From an uncultured Saprospiraceae bacterium (GTDB lineage Bacteria; Bacteroidota; Bacteroidia; Chitinophagales; Saprospiraceae), in assembly GCA_937959115.1 (NCBI GenBank), contig CALGAW010000040.1:62001-126000 (forward strand): DNA of 64,000 nt, written 5' to 3'. Position 1 is the first letter of the stretch; each line of letters opens with the position of its first letter. A program made the position numbers and the translations under genes. Shown here piece after piece: positions 39,273 to 48,372 of the stretch. The notes under the pieces are model-generated. The model ran no database searches. It was not told the origin of the DNA and worked only from the letters and a program-made list of their open reading frames with translations.

Positions 39273-41681
39273 CTAGCGAACCAAAATCTCGAATGCCTGC
39301 TCCAACCGAAATCCCTCCTCATCTACCAACGTCAAGACATGCCTCCCGGGCGCCGGATTAAACGCCAACTGGTGAAAGTCATTCGTCTGCCCGGCATAAG
39401 CATCATCCAAATGCCAATAGATTGTGGAAGTGCGCTTGCGGTGAGCCACTCGAAAAACAGTTCGACTCTTTTCTCCATCCAAGTCCTTAGGAATATAGAT
39501 TTTAGAAACCTCTCTTGGATAAATTAACTGCATTGGCTTATTGGCTTCTGCCATCATCCCTTTGCAATCTTCTCGAAATGGAGGCAGCACCTCGTAACTT
39601 GGGTTGTTTTTCTTGAAGAAATGCTCCTGGATAGGTGGTAGCACAAACCATGAAGCATGTGCCATATTGTTTGGCGATTCACAATCGCTATGCACTTGAT
39701 ATTCCTTGTCTGCATCTAGATGAACTAATCGATGAAATGGGCATGCGTCGCTTCTCAGACCAGCAGTTGCGACCAAGATGGTATCCGCCTCACTGCAATT
39801 TTCAGAAACCCGAAAACCACTGGATTTACAAATGGGAACAGCCACAAGTTCATCAAACGGTGGATCAAACCAATCGCCTTGAGGCAATAGTTCCACTAAT
39901 TCAAACAACAATGGAGCTGCAGCGTGTACTCCAACTAACGTTGGACGCCCTTCTCCATCCGCATTGCCTACCCACACGCCTACCGCATAGTTCGGCATGA
40001 CGCCAACAGCCCAGGCATCTCTAAACCCATGACTGGTTCCTGTTTTCCAAGCGATGGGGCGAGATGATTCGTAATAATCCCAAGCGCCTGAAGTATTGGG
40101 CCGCTCTACTTCTTGCATGGCTTCAAAGGTAAACCAGCTCGCTGCTGCACTGATATTCGGCGGATCTATTAATAATTTTGATTTTGGAGTTCCTTTGTGT
40201 TCTGCTCCAAAAACATAGTTTGGCGGTCTGAAATCTGCTGGATCATACCGACTACTTTGGTCATAAAAATGAAGCAGTGTCCTTGCCATACTTGCATATG
40301 TATTTGTAACCTCCCAAAGCTTCACCTCAGCACCTCCTAGGATTAGAGAAAGCCCATAGTGGTCTGCAGGTTTTGTGATGGTTGATATTCCTGCTTGCTT
40401 TAATTCAAGATGAAATTTATGAATCCCATGCTTTTCAAGCATTTTCACGGTTGGCACATTTAACGATCTTGACAACGCCTTCTTTGCTGGCACTGCACCA
40501 TCATAATCATTATTATAATTCTTAGGCGAAAAACTACCCATGTTAACAGGGATATCCGATATTAGCTGACTTGGTAATAGGCTTCCCTCTTGTATCATTC
40601 CTGCATATAGTAATGGTTTGATAATACTTCCTGTACTCCTTGAAGCCATGATCAAATCAACCTCTTCCCCATTCTCTTTTCCACTGGGCACATTTCCTAC
40701 GTAAGCCACCACATTCCCCGTTTCTACTTCCATGATCACTGCTGCAAGGTTGTTGATCCCGTTCTGTCTCAATCGGAGGTGATGTTGCTTGGCGATTCTA
40801 GAGGCTTGCTCTTGCAGTGTACGATCTATTGTTGTTCTAAGTCGGGTAACTACCCCACTCTTGCCTGAGAATTGTTCCGCGTAAGCACGTTCGAGCAAAT
40901 GTGGTGCTAGTCTTGGTAAGGGATGTGGCTTTTCTGGCAACGGTTCTTCCTTGGATAATTCACATGTCAATTGGTCTATTTTCCCTGCGGCATGGATTCG
41001 ATCTAAGAGGCGATTGCGTTTTGCTCTCAGGACATTTCTATTTTTTCCTGGGTGGACTAACGAAGGGCTGTTTGGCAATACCGCTAAGGTAGCAGCCTCG
41101 CCCCAAGAGAGCAATTCAGGTGCTTTGGCATAATATCGCCACGAAGCCGCATCTAAGCCAACGACATTGCCGCCAAAGGGTGCATTAGAGCTGTAGTAGG
41201 CTAATATCTCGTCTTTGCTGTAGGTGAGCTCCATCCGAGTTGCCATAATCGCCTCAATCGCCTTATTCCATACAGAGCGTGACGAGGCCCCTCTTGCCAT
41301 TCGCATCAGCTGCATTGTTAACGTGCTTCCTCCGCTCACAATACTACGATTTCTAATATTCTGATCCATTGCTCTAGCAATCGCTTTAGCATCAATCCCT
41401 GGATGACTGTAAAACCGTCGATCCTCAAATTCTAGTAGCGCAGTGGCAAACTTATGTGGGATGCTATCTCTGTAAGGAAACCGCCATTGCCCATCTGCTG
41501 CAATTCTAGCGCCGAGTAACTGGTTATCTTTGTCCAGTACCACCATGCTTGTTAACGTATCAAACAATGGTCGAGGCAAGCAAAACCAGTAGGCAACTAA
41601 GCTAATTACAAGCAAAGTGACACTCTTTTTCTTATGTTTGACAAAGAAAAAACGAATACTATTTTTAACCCATTTTTTCAC
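39273..41681 (-). CDS. pbpC: penicillin-binding protein 1C
   Basis: An 802-residue bifunctional-type PBP anchored by one N-terminal helix (~18-36). The transglycosylase domain (GT51) has the catalytic Glu86 in EFEDRRFYSHPG, then SGGSTLTMQLMRM and a second motif near ELTYSKDEILAYY. The transpeptidase domain has S352xxK (RSTGSIIKPLLYA), the SxN motif in RSLN, and KTGT (AWKTGTSHGFRDAW). The C-terminal ~90 residues match the PBP1C-specific biPBP_C domain. The GTG start overlaps the TGA of the upstream metallopeptidase gene (GTGA), so translation is coupled. PBP1C pairs with bacterial alpha-2-macroglobulin in several proteobacteria; here the same pair is kept. Confidence 0.93.
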   Translation of the reverse strand: MKKWVKNSIRFFFVKHKKKSVTLLVISLVAYWFCLPRPLFDTLTSMVVLDKDNQLLGARIAADGQWRFPYRDSIPHKFATALLEFEDRRFYSHPGIDAKAIARAMDQNIRNRSIVSGGSTLTMQLMRMARGASSRSVWNKAIEAIMATRMELTYSKDEILAYYSSNAPFGGNVVGLDAASWRYYAKAPELLSWGEAATLAVLPNSPSLVHPGKNRNVLRAKRNRLLDRIHAAGKIDQLTCELSKEEPLPEKPHPLPRLAPHLLERAYAEQFSGKSGVVTRLRTTIDRTLQEQASRIAKQHHLRLRQNGINNLAAVIMEVETGNVVAYVGNVPSGKENGEEVDLIMASRSTGSIIKPLLYAGMIQEGSLLPSQLISDIPVNMGSFSPKNYNNDYDGAVPAKKALSRSLNVPTVKMLEKHGIHKFHLELKQAGISTITKPADHYGLSLILGGAEVKLWEVTNTYASMARTLLHFYDQSSRYDPADFRPPNYVFGAEHKGTPKSKLLIDPPNISAAASWFTFEAMQEVERPNTSGAWDYYESSRPIAWKTGTSHGFRDAWAVGVMPNYAVGVWVGNADGEGRPTLVGVHAAAPLLFELVELLPQGDWFDPPFDELVAVPICKSSGFRVSENCSEADTILVATAGLRSDACPFHRLVHLDADKEYQVHSDCESPNNMAHASWFVLPPIQEHFFKKNNPSYEVLPPFREDCKGMMAEANKPMQLIYPREVSKIYIPKDLDGEKSRTVFRVAHRKRTSTIYWHLDDAYAGQTNDFHQLAFNPAPGRHVLTLVDEEGFRLEQAFEILVR

Positions 41682-42739
41682 TTAACTAGTATTTGCTCGA
41701 TTTGTTTTAATAATGCTTTTCCATCATCATTTAGCTTGTTATACCTTGCTTTATCCTTCTTTGACAGGGCCAACAGTGCGAAGTTGTCTGCTAGTATCTC
41801 ATCAGGATGGATGATGTAATCAGTGTTATTTCCAATTTGTGCTCTAAACTCTGGATGTGCAGTGTGGCTCACTGTGCTTAAGTAGCCAGTTGGTGTAGTT
41901 AAGACCTGCCAACCTGCTGTTGTTGAATCAATCTGGTAAAGATCAAACGCCATATGATGCAAGTAATCTTTCTTCTGTTTTTCTACGCCTTCACTAAAAG
42001 AGAACGTAAACGGTATCGCTTTAAACGATTGGCCTTCCTTGTCTTTAAGACGAATTGCATATCGTAGATCCATTCCATCTGGATTAAGCAACCGCTTGCG
42101 TTTCATCAGTTCCGTTAATAAAAGCTTGTCAATCGGCTGAAAACCAATCGTAGCGTACAGCTCTTCCTTTTTTACCTTGTTCTTTCGTGAATACAAATGA
42201 AAAATTTCGTGTAGCATTGTTTCTAGGAAATACTCGGGCGTTCTATACCCTGCTTTCAATTTCTGTGCGGGAACAACAATTGCATTTTCCCTAGTATAAT
42301 ATACATTCTCACCATAGTTATCGGCTTCATACTTGATCAGTTGAATTGGTTCATTAAACAAATCTCCTACAAAAGGACTGGAGAGTTGTTTTGCCTCTTC
42401 TAGAATACCTAAGACGTATATTTTTTCACTTTCGTTGAATGACACGCAGCCTTTTTTTAATACTTGTTTATAGTTCTGAAGGATTTCACCGAAAGGTGTC
42501 TCATCTTTTTCATCCAGTTTCAACTGAATTCTTAGATCTGTTGCATTAATCAACTCAAAGAATCGTTCGATTGTATCCCTTGTAATTTGCATTGCGGCCT
42601 CCTCTTGGTCAAGGAGTTGAAAATGCTTGGTTAAGGATTCAAATTCAGATAATTTACGATCAATGCTTTGCTTGCAGCCACAAGCTAGTACTAAGATTGT
42701 GGCTACAATCAAAACAGTATATGTTCCGTTAATTTTCAC
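41678..42739 (-). CDS. lipoprotein zinc metallopeptidase between A2M and pbpC
   Basis: A 353-residue predicted lipoprotein: the N-terminal hydrophobic stretch leads to a lipobox (LVLAC, Cys20, or Cys22). The middle and C-terminal part are helical and contain HEIFH at 177-181 (HExxH) and EILAD at 314-318 (ExxxD, the gluzincin third-ligand pattern as in thermolysin), so a zinc metallopeptidase is likely. A further Asp/Tyr-rich region (HHMAFDLYQ, ~261) may line the active site. Family unknown to me. The gene sits 29 bp after the alpha-2-macroglobulin gene and overlaps pbpC, so the three must be co-expressed. A peptidase beside a peptidase trap is unusual. Confidence 0.68.
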   Translation of the reverse strand: MKINGTYTVLIVATILVLACGCKQSIDRKLSEFESLTKHFQLLDQEEAAMQITRDTIERFFELINATDLRIQLKLDEKDETPFGEILQNYKQVLKKGCVSFNESEKIYVLGILEEAKQLSSPFVGDLFNEPIQLIKYEADNYGENVYYTRENAIVVPAQKLKAGYRTPEYFLETMLHEIFHLYSRKNKVKKEELYATIGFQPIDKLLLTELMKRKRLLNPDGMDLRYAIRLKDKEGQSFKAIPFTFSFSEGVEKQKKDYLHHMAFDLYQIDSTTAGWQVLTTPTGYLSTVSHTAHPEFRAQIGNNTDYIIHPDEILADNFALLALSKKDKARYNKLNDDGKALLKQIEQILVK

Positions 42740-42768
42740 GGTGTTCTCTTCTTAACTGGTCATTTTAA

Positions 42769-45700
42769 CTAATTGCCAGGTCTGAAAACTTCTACCCATT
42801 GTCCTGGTTGTCTGGCGTTAATGGTGTTGTCATACATGGCTTCACAATAGGTTGAAGGTAAGTAATATTTTCCAACATATGCTGCATTCAATTGAACATT
42901 GTACACTTGCTCTTCTGTAGCACGAATGTCAAAATAGCTGTAGACTCTATCGTCTCGGATATCTTGATATTCAGGTGTTGAAGCTTTTAAATTGTTACTT
43001 ACATTATTCATCCTAGAATTATGAATCTCCCATCCACTTGGAAAAATCTGACTCAGTGCCATTTCGTTGTATCGACCATGAAGTCCTGGATTTTTCAGTC
43101 GTACTTGAGCAATGAAATCTGTGCCTTGTTCTAGTTTACTAATGTTAATCGTATCGCCTTCTAGACTAAGGTAATTGACCTTCATTACTAGTTTGTTGGC
43201 TGCTTTGGTCTTGTCCCCTACAATTGGTTGTCCCTGTAATACAAGGCGAGCGAATACAATTCCATCTGTTGTATTCGAGATTGAAATTGACTTATTGGAT
43301 AGATTATCAACTCCCAGCGGAATCTGCACAACTGCTTTATCCGACCCTGCATTTATAGGACTTTGATTTCCAATTTTATAGGTAAAGTTAAATTTCTTAG
43401 ACAAGTCTTTCTCTCCAACAAACTTCCCACAAGCAAGTAAGCAGTATGAAATTGTCTGAGTAGAATGCCAGCCGTTAGAACTCAATTGATCAGAGATCTG
43501 TTTCATAACCTCAGCAGCACGTTTCCGATCATCTAGCAAAACTAGCGTCTCAAGGATCATTGCTCTGTCTCTCAAGGCAGATCCGTAGGTATAGCTCAAT
43601 TCTCGGTAAGGCTTGATTTCTGTCGTTAAGCCATTGATCATCTCTTTGGCGACTTCTGGTTTCCCAGCAAGGACGTAAGCTGCAGCAAGTCTCCATTTTG
43701 CAGTAGCAGGTAATTCCTTCACCTCTCGCATACGGTTCATAGAACCAAGTTCAGGCGACTTGGCTAAGGCAAGCATATACAAGCGGTATGACTGAACTAG
43801 ATGGACATTTCCACGATAGCCCCATTTATAAGGATAATCTTCTGGTCGCCAAGAGCGTACTGTTTTCTTTTGGAAATTCACCAAGTTATTCAACAAGGCT
43901 TCTGGTACATTGTATCCTGCATTTTTCGCTTCTATGAGAAAGTGTCCTGCATAGTTTGATCCCCAGTAACTTGGGTAGGTAGCACCGGGCCAATATCCAA
44001 GTCCACCTGAACCAATTTGGAACCGTTTGATTTTAGCAATTGCTTCTTTGATGTTGTATTCCGCTTCCTTCTTTTGAGCATCCGTCAAGTCAAGCAATCG
44101 ACCAGCGAATAACTGAGGAAAAACGGCTGAAGTCGTTTGCTCAATACATCCATGCGGATAGCGAATAAGGTATTCCATTCTGCGACCAAGGTTTAATGGT
44201 GGAATGCTTGAAACTTCTAGAATACCAGAGTTTGTGCCTTTGGTTCCTACGAGTTTAAAGTCTTCGTTCCAGGTTTCTCCCTTTTCTAGGACTCTAGCTG
44301 CTACATCGGTGACCTTTGGATTTGGATTTCGCACATCGAGCTCTATCTCTTGTGTTGCGGTTTCTCCTCCTCCAGTTGTGATTACTTTTACCTTGCCGAC
44401 TCCAATGCCTTTGGTTACTTTTAAGTCAAAAGTGACTACTTTTTCATCTGGTTTATCGAAACGGACTTTCTGGGAAGATGGACCAACGACTTCAAACAGT
44501 GCACTAGGTTCTATGCGTACATCTACCTCTTTCACTTTGTTCTCCATTGCGAAGACAGTCACTGGGAGTTTTACCGTTTCGGTTGGCCCTAGTACTCTTG
44601 GCAATGTTGCTAGTACCATGAGCGGTTTACGTACTGGTGTTGTCTTGTCTGCATTGCCATAGGCGCCTTCGTTTGCTGCTACCACCATTGTGCGGACAGA
44701 TCCGACATAATTTGCCATTTCCAGTTCATGTGTTGCCTTTGATCCTTTTTTAAGTTCAAATGGACCTAGGAAACTGACAACGGGTTTAAAACGGTTGGCT
44801 TTCTTTGCATTTTTAGGTTTAACAGCACCATCACCACCAATGGCCATGATCCGTTCTAAATCGCCACCGTAAGCACCGAGGACATAATTGTACATATCCC
44901 ATGATTTAACGCCTAGTGCTTCTTTAGCGTAAAAGGTATTCCAAGGATCAGGTGTTTTAAATCGCGTTAAATCAAGTAATCCTTCATCGACGACAGCGAT
45001 GGTATACGCCATTGGTTTACCACTCTTTTCCTTTACTTGAACCGTATATTTTTCCTCGGGTTTTAGGACATCATCCATCACAATTTGCGGTTCAATTCTA
45101 GTGTTTGGATCTTCGATGTAGATTGGAATTACCCCATACATTCTAACGGGCAAATCGTTTTTCACTTGGCCATGCGGCTGAATTAAGGTAACATGCGCAT
45201 ATACATTAGGTGTCATGGACTCCGTTGCGTAGAATTGGAATTTGGTTTCTCCTTTCTTTGCATTGACCCAGTAACTTTCTAGTACTCTTGAGCCATTCTC
45301 AATAGTTACGAGTGCTTTGCCTTCTTGCCCAGTGGGTATTTTAAGGGTGACTGTTTCGCCTACTGCATATTTCTTTTTGTCTGAAGAAAAAGCTAGCATG
45401 GTTGCCCCAGCTCTTGATCCGCCGTTCTCATCATCCCAAGGGCTGCCTGCGTAGGCAAAATCACCAGCACAGTGCCCAGATTCTGGATCACACACTCTGA
45501 TCATGTACCGTCCCCAGCCTTCTGGTTTCACAGACCAAGATGCGGTTCCGTTTCCATTGGAGGTGACTTCTGTTTTTGTGACTGCGTTTAGATGGGTTGT
45601 ACTGTTGTAGCGTCCTAGGTTATCACTTGAACGTTCCCACCACCACCGCCAATCTACCCGATAGAGACCAACATTCAATTTCTTGTTTTTAATTGGTTTT

Positions 45701-48372
45701 CCATTTGCATCAACCACTACGACCTCCACTCTATTGTTTTTTCCGATATCAAACCGCTTTGAGTTGTATTTGTTTTTCGGGATATTAATTCCTGCAAAGG
45801 ATTCATAAGGATTAAAATCCATTGCAAAGTTGTCTGAGCTAAAATCGCCACCGCTTTCAAATGCTCTTGCGCTAAAGAATACCTTCATCTTTCCAGGTAC
45901 TTCATCGTTGGTGTTTAATTTCGATTTGAACGTCGTGTAACCATCATCATTAACTTTTCCATCAAAAATTGTCTTTGGTTCAACCTCAAAAGCTCTTGCT
46001 GGGTCATCAAACATAAAATCATCGTAGGTTTTAAAGCGAGTTGTTACTGGTTTCATTTCCATTTTGATTTCAGTACGCACGCCTTTTGCTGGAGCACCAT
46101 GCAGCCAATTTACTTTAATGATACCTTCTAAATTCTTATCTGCTGCTTGTAACACTTGCCTTCCAAAATCGATGTTTAGTTTAAGTCGATTGGGCTTCAC
46201 CGTTTCCACTCTGATATTTTTATAGAATTTGGCTCCTCCGACTTCTATCAATGCTGACCAATTTCCAGTAGGCGCTTCTTGGGAAGTTGCCGTCTTGAAA
46301 TTATACATGTGCTTCACATGGCTTGTTCTTGTTGTAGTTTGCTGTAGTTGTCCTTTAGGATCTTTAAATTTAAACGTAACTGGATGGTTGTCCGGGAGTT
46401 TGTTTTGTTTGTCTTCAAGAATGAAACTCAGGTAAATAGAATCACCAGGACGCCAAACGCCACGTTCTCCATAGATGTATCCTTTCAATCCCTTCTGCGT
46501 TTGAGCACCCGACACTTCGAACTTACTCAATGAATTAGAAGATCCGTCAGCTAGTTTCAAGTAACCGACCTCATCGCCTCTTTTTACCGAAACAGCAAAA
46601 GGATTCCGTTTTGTATCAATGAAAAGTATTCCATCAGAATCAGATTTAAAATTACCTAACGATTGCTGTTGGTAATCGAACAGTTCAATATCAGCACCGG
46701 CGATAGGCTTTGCAGTAATTAGATCCGTGACGGCAATCATCAGATTTCCATCAGTTCCTTGCTTACCGATGATTCCGATATTAGAAGCAAATACATTTCT
46801 TTTCACCCAATTTCTGGAAGTATAGTAGGCAGGATAACAAGGATCATTTCTATGTTTGTACTTATATCCAGGGTAATTATAACTACGATATGGATTATCC
46901 CAAAAACTAACTAACTCTTCCTCCTCCGACCGTTCGTTTAATGAAACACGTTCCAAGTCATTGGTTTCATTTTCATTTTCGTCACAACTATAGGCTCTGT
47001 ATTCTTCCTTAAAACCAATTCTCACTTGGTAGATGGCACCAGGATCTGTCTGAGTCATTTTACTAAGATCCAATCCATACCTAGTCCATTCGGCAGCGTT
47101 GGCAGAGGCATTCAGTGCATTTAAGGGTACTTTCTCCTGGTGCACTACTCGACCGACTCTGTAGAAATCGTAGGTACTATTGAAATCGTTATTTTGAAAA
47201 AACTGAAGGATATTATTCTGGAAAATCTTAAACACCTCAACATCAATTGCCTTAAGATTTACGGCGTCAAACGGAAAAATCAGTCCATCAGTCCCTGGCA
47301 TAATCACACCATTACCGACTAGCTTCACCTTTGGTGGAAGGGTGCTAAATGTCAATGACCATTTGCCAGACTTCTCCATTTTAAAGGATTGAGAATTGCG
47401 GATGCCTGGAGTAAAACTCACGTCTTTTGCCCCTTGCAGGCGAACGCCTGGGTATACTCTTAGTTCATTACCATCGATCTTGTAACGGTAGTTTGACGTA
47501 TTTGCTCCAGAGATTTTCACCAACCCGCTTAGATTTTGATCCGCTTTTAAGGGATCACTGAATTTTGCTAGGATGTATTGTTCCGTCCCCTTGATCACTC
47601 TAGCGTCAAGCACTTTAAAATCTCCTAGGGCTGGAACTTCTACTTCCTTGGAATCTGAGCTTCTTACTCCGATCTGTTTTCCATTCCAACTCAAGTCAAC
47701 CTTTGAGGCTTTATTTGAACGCACCACATTATCAATTGTAAAATGGTGGGTCTCTTGATTTACATCATGTGTCCAGTTGATTTTTAGCTGATTGTTGCTT
47801 GGTTGGGAGAAGCTCAGCATTTGTTTGACGGCTTCAATATCAGCGTGATCAGCCGTCTGAATTTTCCCAAGTAGTTGCTGTTTATTAAGATCAGAAACAT
47901 CAGGTGTATTCAACCCCTCTACGATAATAGAATAGTCTTGTTTTTTCGTTTGGAAGAAATACTCAAATGTGGACAACTTAGAAGGGACATCCTCGTAAAG
48001 TTTATTTAGTTTAACTCTAACGGTGTATTCAGTATCTTCTTTTAAGTGGTTTGCAGGAGTAAACTTAATCGTTCTCTGGTCTTGCCATATAGCTGTTCCT
48101 TTAGTAGAAGGTGAAAGACTGATGACATTAGATTCAAGGGATTGGCCAATTTCGGATTGTTCGATAGCCGCTTCATTCAATTTTACAATAAGTGGGGTTG
48201 TCTTTGAGATCACACCACTGGAATAGGCGTAAATGTAGGAACCAAACCCAGGGTCTATTGTTGGGTAGGCTGTTTTCTTTTTTTGTTTACAAGAGGTAAT
48301 TAGAATCGATGTACAAAGGAAGAATAGAAGAAGTGTAATGATTGAAAAGGAAGAGCGTACGTTTTTTTTCAT
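42769..48372 (-). CDS. bacterial alpha-2-macroglobulin lipoprotein
   Basis: An 1,867-residue lipoprotein (lipobox ITSC, Cys28). The length, MG-type beta-sandwich domains and bait-like linker agree with bacterial A2M of the YfhM type. Signposts: RFxxT strands in the N-terminal MG domains, the macroglobulin core blocks YGERGVWRPGDSIYLSFILED and EEKYTVQVKEKSGKPMAYTIAVVDEGLLDLTRF, and the thioester CIEQ with Cys1409, Glu1411 and Gln1412 (GCIEQTTSAVFPQLF). The helical thioester-containing domain and a C-terminal MG domain follow. Such proteins trap attacking proteases in the periplasm and bind them covalently. It is the first gene of an operon with a metallopeptidase and pbpC. The thioester class (not the MagD-like thioester-free form) is indicated by the intact CxEQ. 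Confidence 0.92.
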   Translation of the reverse strand: MKKNVRSSFSIITLLLFFLCTSILITSCKQKKKTAYPTIDPGFGSYIYAYSSGVISKTTPLIVKLNEAAIEQSEIGQSLESNVISLSPSTKGTAIWQDQRTIKFTPANHLKEDTEYTVRVKLNKLYEDVPSKLSTFEYFFQTKKQDYSIIVEGLNTPDVSDLNKQQLLGKIQTADHADIEAVKQMLSFSQPSNNQLKINWTHDVNQETHHFTIDNVVRSNKASKVDLSWNGKQIGVRSSDSKEVEVPALGDFKVLDARVIKGTEQYILAKFSDPLKADQNLSGLVKISGANTSNYRYKIDGNELRVYPGVRLQGAKDVSFTPGIRNSQSFKMEKSGKWSLTFSTLPPKVKLVGNGVIMPGTDGLIFPFDAVNLKAIDVEVFKIFQNNILQFFQNNDFNSTYDFYRVGRVVHQEKVPLNALNASANAAEWTRYGLDLSKMTQTDPGAIYQVRIGFKEEYRAYSCDENENETNDLERVSLNERSEEEELVSFWDNPYRSYNYPGYKYKHRNDPCYPAYYTSRNWVKRNVFASNIGIIGKQGTDGNLMIAVTDLITAKPIAGADIELFDYQQQSLGNFKSDSDGILFIDTKRNPFAVSVKRGDEVGYLKLADGSSNSLSKFEVSGAQTQKGLKGYIYGERGVWRPGDSIYLSFILEDKQNKLPDNHPVTFKFKDPKGQLQQTTTRTSHVKHMYNFKTATSQEAPTGNWSALIEVGGAKFYKNIRVETVKPNRLKLNIDFGRQVLQAADKNLEGIIKVNWLHGAPAKGVRTEIKMEMKPVTTRFKTYDDFMFDDPARAFEVEPKTIFDGKVNDDGYTTFKSKLNTNDEVPGKMKVFFSARAFESGGDFSSDNFAMDFNPYESFAGINIPKNKYNSKRFDIGKNNRVEVVVVDANGKPIKNKKLNVGLYRVDWRWWWERSSDNLGRYNSTTHLNAVTKTEVTSNGNGTASWSVKPEGWGRYMIRVCDPESGHCAGDFAYAGSPWDDENGGSRAGATMLAFSSDKKKYAVGETVTLKIPTGQEGKALVTIENGSRVLESYWVNAKKGETKFQFYATESMTPNVYAHVTLIQPHGQVKNDLPVRMYGVIPIYIEDPNTRIEPQIVMDDVLKPEEKYTVQVKEKSGKPMAYTIAVVDEGLLDLTRFKTPDPWNTFYAKEALGVKSWDMYNYVLGAYGGDLERIMAIGGDGAVKPKNAKKANRFKPVVSFLGPFELKKGSKATHELEMANYVGSVRTMVVAANEGAYGNADKTTPVRKPLMVLATLPRVLGPTETVKLPVTVFAMENKVKEVDVRIEPSALFEVVGPSSQKVRFDKPDEKVVTFDLKVTKGIGVGKVKVITTGGGETATQEIELDVRNPNPKVTDVAARVLEKGETWNEDFKLVGTKGTNSGILEVSSIPPLNLGRRMEYLIRYPHGCIEQTTSAVFPQLFAGRLLDLTDAQKKEAEYNIKEAIAKIKRFQIGSGGLGYWPGATYPSYWGSNYAGHFLIEAKNAGYNVPEALLNNLVNFQKKTVRSWRPEDYPYKWGYRGNVHLVQSYRLYMLALAKSPELGSMNRMREVKELPATAKWRLAAAYVLAGKPEVAKEMINGLTTEIKPYRELSYTYGSALRDRAMILETLVLLDDRKRAAEVMKQISDQLSSNGWHSTQTISYCLLACGKFVGEKDLSKKFNFTYKIGNQSPINAGSDKAVVQIPLGVDNLSNKSISISNTTDGIVFARLVLQGQPIVGDKTKAANKLVMKVNYLSLEGDTINISKLEQGTDFIAQVRLKNPGLHGRYNEMALSQIFPSGWEIHNSRMNNVSNNLKASTPEYQDIRDDRVYSYFDIRATEEQVYNVQLNAAYVGKYYLPSTYCEAMYDNTINARQPGQWVEVFRPGN

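Follow-up and report, generated by a model that had tools for sequence, protein, structure and literature searches.

A gene encoding a putative lipoprotein metallopeptidase, situated between an alpha-2-macroglobulin (A2M) gene and pbpC in a 64,000-nucleotide stretch of DNA from an uncultured Saprospiraceae bacterium (hereafter the window), belongs to a family whose genomic linkage to pbpC is far stronger than its linkage to A2M. Our best explanation, held tentatively and with close to an even chance of being correct, is that the gene encodes a membrane-anchored periplasmic zinc metallopeptidase that is produced from one message with the penicillin-binding protein PBP1C and shares an envelope-maintenance job with it. 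That the protein binds zinc and is catalytic, sits at the membrane, shares a transcript with PBP1C, contacts or cooperates with it and acts on the kind of substrate proposed below is inferred. The placement of the peptidase on the PBP1C side is moderately supported, and a function in regulating the A2M trap is not supported.

The window translation reveals three genes in the same orientation on the minus strand, in the order A2M, 353-residue lipoprotein and PBP1C. The A2M gene (42769-48372, ATG start) encodes a putative lipoprotein of 1867 amino acids, for which we read the lipobox cysteine from the sequence in SCKQ (48283-48294, minus strand). Its thioester motif CIEQ (residues 1409-1412, window 44137-44148), together with the bait-region and MG domains among its Pfam matches (A2M_BRD, E=2.3e-19; MG2; bMG3/5/6/10, with bMG6 at E=1e-21; A2M; TED), identifies it as a type I bacterial A2M and thus as a putative protease trap. 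The pbpC gene (39273-41681, minus strand, GTG start) encodes a bifunctional glycosyltransferase/transpeptidase of 802 amino acids, which scores 680 bits on TIGR02073 (cut-off 494) and carries the Transgly (GT51), Transpeptidase and BiPBP_C domains with the motifs EDRRF, STGSI and KTGTS. The initial annotation recognized here a known bacterial pairing of PBP1C with an A2M that has an intact CxEQ, and this pair has indeed been described, with the proposal that it inhibits proteases entering the periplasm and repairs damaged murein (PMC4498604, PMC5764988). Like the type I A2M-PBP1C pair yfhM-pbpC of E. coli, the window combines a thioester A2M with a downstream PBP1C in one orientation, but it carries one additional lipoprotein-peptidase gene in between. 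For PBP1C itself, no role is known under standard laboratory conditions (PMC7554673). A literature search on the three-gene set or on A2M in Saprospiraceae returned nothing relevant.

The peptidase gene (41678-42739, minus strand, GTG start) lies 29 bp from the A2M gene, and its stop overlaps the pbpC start by 4 bp (GTGA, 41678-41681, minus strand). The anatomy claimed in the initial annotation, with an HExxH lipoprotein encoded between PBP1C and an A2M that bears the thioester motif, is therefore confirmed in its coordinates, motifs and GTGA overlap. Peptidase/pbpC overlaps of 4 bp occur in four genomes, namely that of the window, G030, G031 and G028. No terminator-like site was present on the coding strand between any of these genes; promoter- and terminator-like sites were not enriched over shuffled sequence. 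Judging by the gene spacing, the peptidase and PBP1C would be co-transcribed on one message. Compared with G002, a genome of the same genus, the window shows 49% identity for the peptidase, which is lower than for A2M (67%) and PBP1C (68%).

The peptidase possesses a lipobox, LACGC (42674-42688, minus strand), with Cys20 or Cys22 as the predicted acylated residue; by eye, the segment VLAC/GC at residues 17-22 reads as a lipoprotein signal, and Cys22 is invariant in an alignment of 78 homologues. Also invariant in these 78 rows are H177, E178 and H181 of the presumed zinc-binding and catalytic motif HEIFH (residues 177-181, 42197-42211, minus strand), N219-P220-D221 of the motif NPDG (residues 219-222, 42074-42085, minus strand), N305-T306, Y308, P312, E314, A317, D318 and N319. 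Glu314, the presumed third zinc ligand, and Asp318 belong to EILADN (41783-41800, minus strand; EILAD being residues 314-318), and the conservation of HExxH with a downstream Glu is the sequence signature of a gluzincin-type enzyme. In seven close pairs, dN/dS (Nei-Gojobori) ranged from 0.03 to 0.16, with dS above 1 in four of them. The homologues, the invariant residues and these ratios rule out a chance ORF or a pseudogene: the family is real and under purifying selection.

Peptidase homologues were found in 145 of the 298 Saprospiraceae genomes sampled, in 25 of 36 same-family genomes of the first sample (the window's own genome aside), and at 372 confirmed loci in a scan of a genome collection; nearly all of the 80 matches listed of these 372 carry the title Saprospiraceae or other Bacteroidota. 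A phylum-wide sample of 395 genomes yielded five with relatives outside the order, which by eye have apparent signal peptides without the conserved lipobox cysteine. The family is mainly one of Saprospiraceae, and other Bacteroidota have only sparse relatives. One member lies on a contig titled Thermoanaerobaculia (L114) in a histidine-kinase context typical of Saprospiraceae, and the contig is possibly misbinned. A distant relative (L159:8173-9144), adjoining a 2210-aa ORF, reads HKLFH and has thereby naturally lost the catalytic Glu (E178 to Lys), possibly as an inactive copy.

The peptidase could not be assigned to a known family, as searches against Pfam, NCBIfam, PHROGs, PADLOC and PDB sequences all remained below cut-off. 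MPTase-PolyVal (PF18818) was rejected with 15.1 bits against a cut-off of 27.5. DUF5700 (PF18958), a putative zinc-dependent peptidase, was likewise rejected: the window peptidase gave no match, a search of 61 relatives gave only two matches, both below cut-off, and the best of the family members scanned matches in the HExxH region over 87 residues (E=7e-4) with 19.5 bits against a cut-off of 25. An AlphaFold2 model built from the 78-row alignment (pLDDT 94.1, pTM 0.89) places the two motifs in helices, HEIFH in that of residues 168-186 and EILAD in that of residues 312-328, a predicted placement that fits a gluzincin-like HExxH...E arrangement. Periplasmic proteases of the M48 type, such as BepA, combine HExxH and a downstream Glu with an envelope location. 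The HExxH helix of the peptidase gave its top PDB profile match with M48-type proteases, but non-significantly (E=1.5); no significant sequence or fold match to M48/BepA was obtained, and 132 residues separate HExxH from the presumed third ligand in the peptidase. Foldseek of the model against the PDB produced no match better than E=0.68. In BFVD, two uncharacterised giant-virus proteins have a similar predicted fold at 16-19% identity, A0A5K0UA69 of Yasminevirus (E=5.5e-18, TM 0.71/0.79) and A0A2P0VNT6 of Tetraselmis virus 1 (E=1.8e-9, TM 0.47/0.68), so that the predicted fold is not unique to the family. A scan of IMG/VR for viral homologues confirmed none.

To see which neighbour the peptidase follows, gene positions were compared across the 298 Saprospiraceae genomes, among the matches listed. 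Of the 126 genomes that carry both peptidase and pbpC, 91 gave usable distances, as did 89 of the 120 that carry both peptidase and A2M; positions for four genomes (G004, G006, G009 and G029) were added from separate locus data, and the counts leave out three fragmentary peptidase matches as well as a few second copies. The peptidase lies at most 4 kb from pbpC in 38 of the 91 genomes, and in 37 it is upstream on the same strand; it lies at most 15 kb from A2M in 4 of the 89. Without the four added genomes and with the omitted G510, these counts become 36/90 for pbpC and 4/86 for A2M, and the conclusion on linkage is thus independent of the added genomes. With kinship ignored in each comparison, presence of the peptidase shows a weak association with that of pbpC (odds ratio 2.2, p=0.012); it is uncorrelated with that of A2M (Fisher p=0.66), and the association between A2M and pbpC is strong (odds ratio 71, p=2e-30). 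The peptidase-pbpC link is not obligatory: at the thresholds used, 17 peptidase-positive genomes have neither A2M nor pbpC detected, several of them being at least 97% complete, and gaps in the assemblies may account for part of these absences.

These results bear directly on the suggestion in the initial annotation that the peptidase might trigger or clear the A2M trap or be under its control, or might act on the murein side with PBP1C. The three-gene module is not conserved among relatives, with A2M and peptidase in proximity in only 4/89 genomes, and linkage and co-occurrence rule out trap control as the main reading. It is very unlikely that the peptidase cuts A2M in its bait region, removes spent A2M or is held in check by A2M. 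Such a partnership would be favoured by the four genomes in which the two genes are adjacent, which fall at three distinct points of the peptidase tree (the window with G002; G353, the L075 locus; and G441, L163), but the peptidase is kept where A2M is undetected and pbpC is near in all four loci, so that the A2M adjacency follows from an older A2M-pbpC pair and is best read as incidental. The murein-side part of the suggestion fared better, the upstream same-strand position and the overlaps speaking for it and the lack of an obligatory link against it.

Saprospiraceae as well as further families of the order (G040, G060) have A2M adjacent to pbpC without a peptidase between them, and the peptidase therefore probably entered an older pair. 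On the peptidase tree, pbpC linkage extends over deep branches, several of them poorly supported, and 12 changes are needed. The simplest account is that the gene was inserted beside pbpC in the old pair and that A2M was later separated in most lineages; alternatively, the genes may have re-associated repeatedly. In G441 and G353, a propeller-type histidine kinase (Reg_prop/Y_Y_Y; L163:10621-13731 and L075:9931-12990) stands between peptidase and pbpC.

Other contexts are varied. In a large clade, the peptidase gene follows directly behind a HAMP-type histidine kinase at 19 loci (HAMP-HisKA; L076:8541-9947 and 18 others), with Sir2 nearby, and in smaller groups its neighbours are Tex, WbqC or DUF4403. 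Histidine kinases of different architectures thus recur beside the gene. The varied neighbours point to no single function, yet do not contradict an envelope role. They do sustain a different account, in which a general periplasmic quality-control or nutritional peptidase has no tie to PBP1C and pbpC adjacency is inherited gene order only. We give this a substantial, though clearly less than even, chance: besides the unrelated contexts (Sir2-histidine kinase, Tex, WbqC, DUF4403), it is favoured by retention of the peptidase in genomes without detected pbpC and by relatives in other Bacteroidota without pbpC nearby, but it leaves aside that pbpC is spread over more branches than any other neighbour and nearly always lies downstream on the same strand, sometimes overlapping. 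A third possibility builds on the co-linearity of a lipoprotein with a class A PBP. PBP1a and PBP1b have lipoprotein cofactors in the outer membrane, LpoA and LpoB respectively (PMC7554673), and the peptidase might by analogy regulate PBP1C, its fold serving mainly for binding, sensing or processing. This resemblance in role is a hypothesis and appears quite unlikely to hold, as the invariance of HExxH and Glu314 speaks for a catalytic function, the gene is kept in genomes without detected pbpC, family searches gave no Lpo match, and the Lpo proteins are not peptidases and show no homology to it.

The preferred reading, an envelope peptidase working alongside PBP1C, draws on the pbpC linkage over deep branches, the overlaps, the invariant motifs and their position in model helices, and dN/dS. 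Against it stand the 17 genomes with neither partner detected, the large clade behind histidine kinase and Sir2, the shared ancestry that inflates the peptidase-pbpC linkage count, and the lack of a PDB fold match supporting the mechanism. Under this reading, the peptidase would be anchored, probably in the outer membrane, facing the periplasm as a zinc enzyme of the gluzincin-like HExxH...E type, and would be made with PBP1C from one message. Together they would maintain or repair the space between peptidoglycan and outer membrane, PBP1C rebuilding murein while the peptidase probably cleaves a damaged polypeptide or a protein of the envelope. HExxH peptidases are not known to act as murein hydrolases, which makes a murein substrate unlikely. 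A2M would adjoin because the peptidase gene was inserted into the older A2M-pbpC pair.

A bolder version, in which the lipoprotein represents a new family of peptidases, with no structure solved for its fold, and serves as an anchored partner of PBP1C that couples envelope proteolysis to murein synthesis, is unlikely, with a small chance of being right; if true, it would give PBP1C a testable role. As a trap regulator the peptidase would be ordinary, and as an unclassified family linked to PBP1C it is moderately interesting. The family is large, with its hundreds of confirmed loci, and unnamed in Pfam and NCBIfam, so that a single structure or assay would be enough to annotate genes by the hundred, and a conserved peptidase just upstream of pbpC in many Saprospiraceae offers a concrete handle on PBP1C function there.
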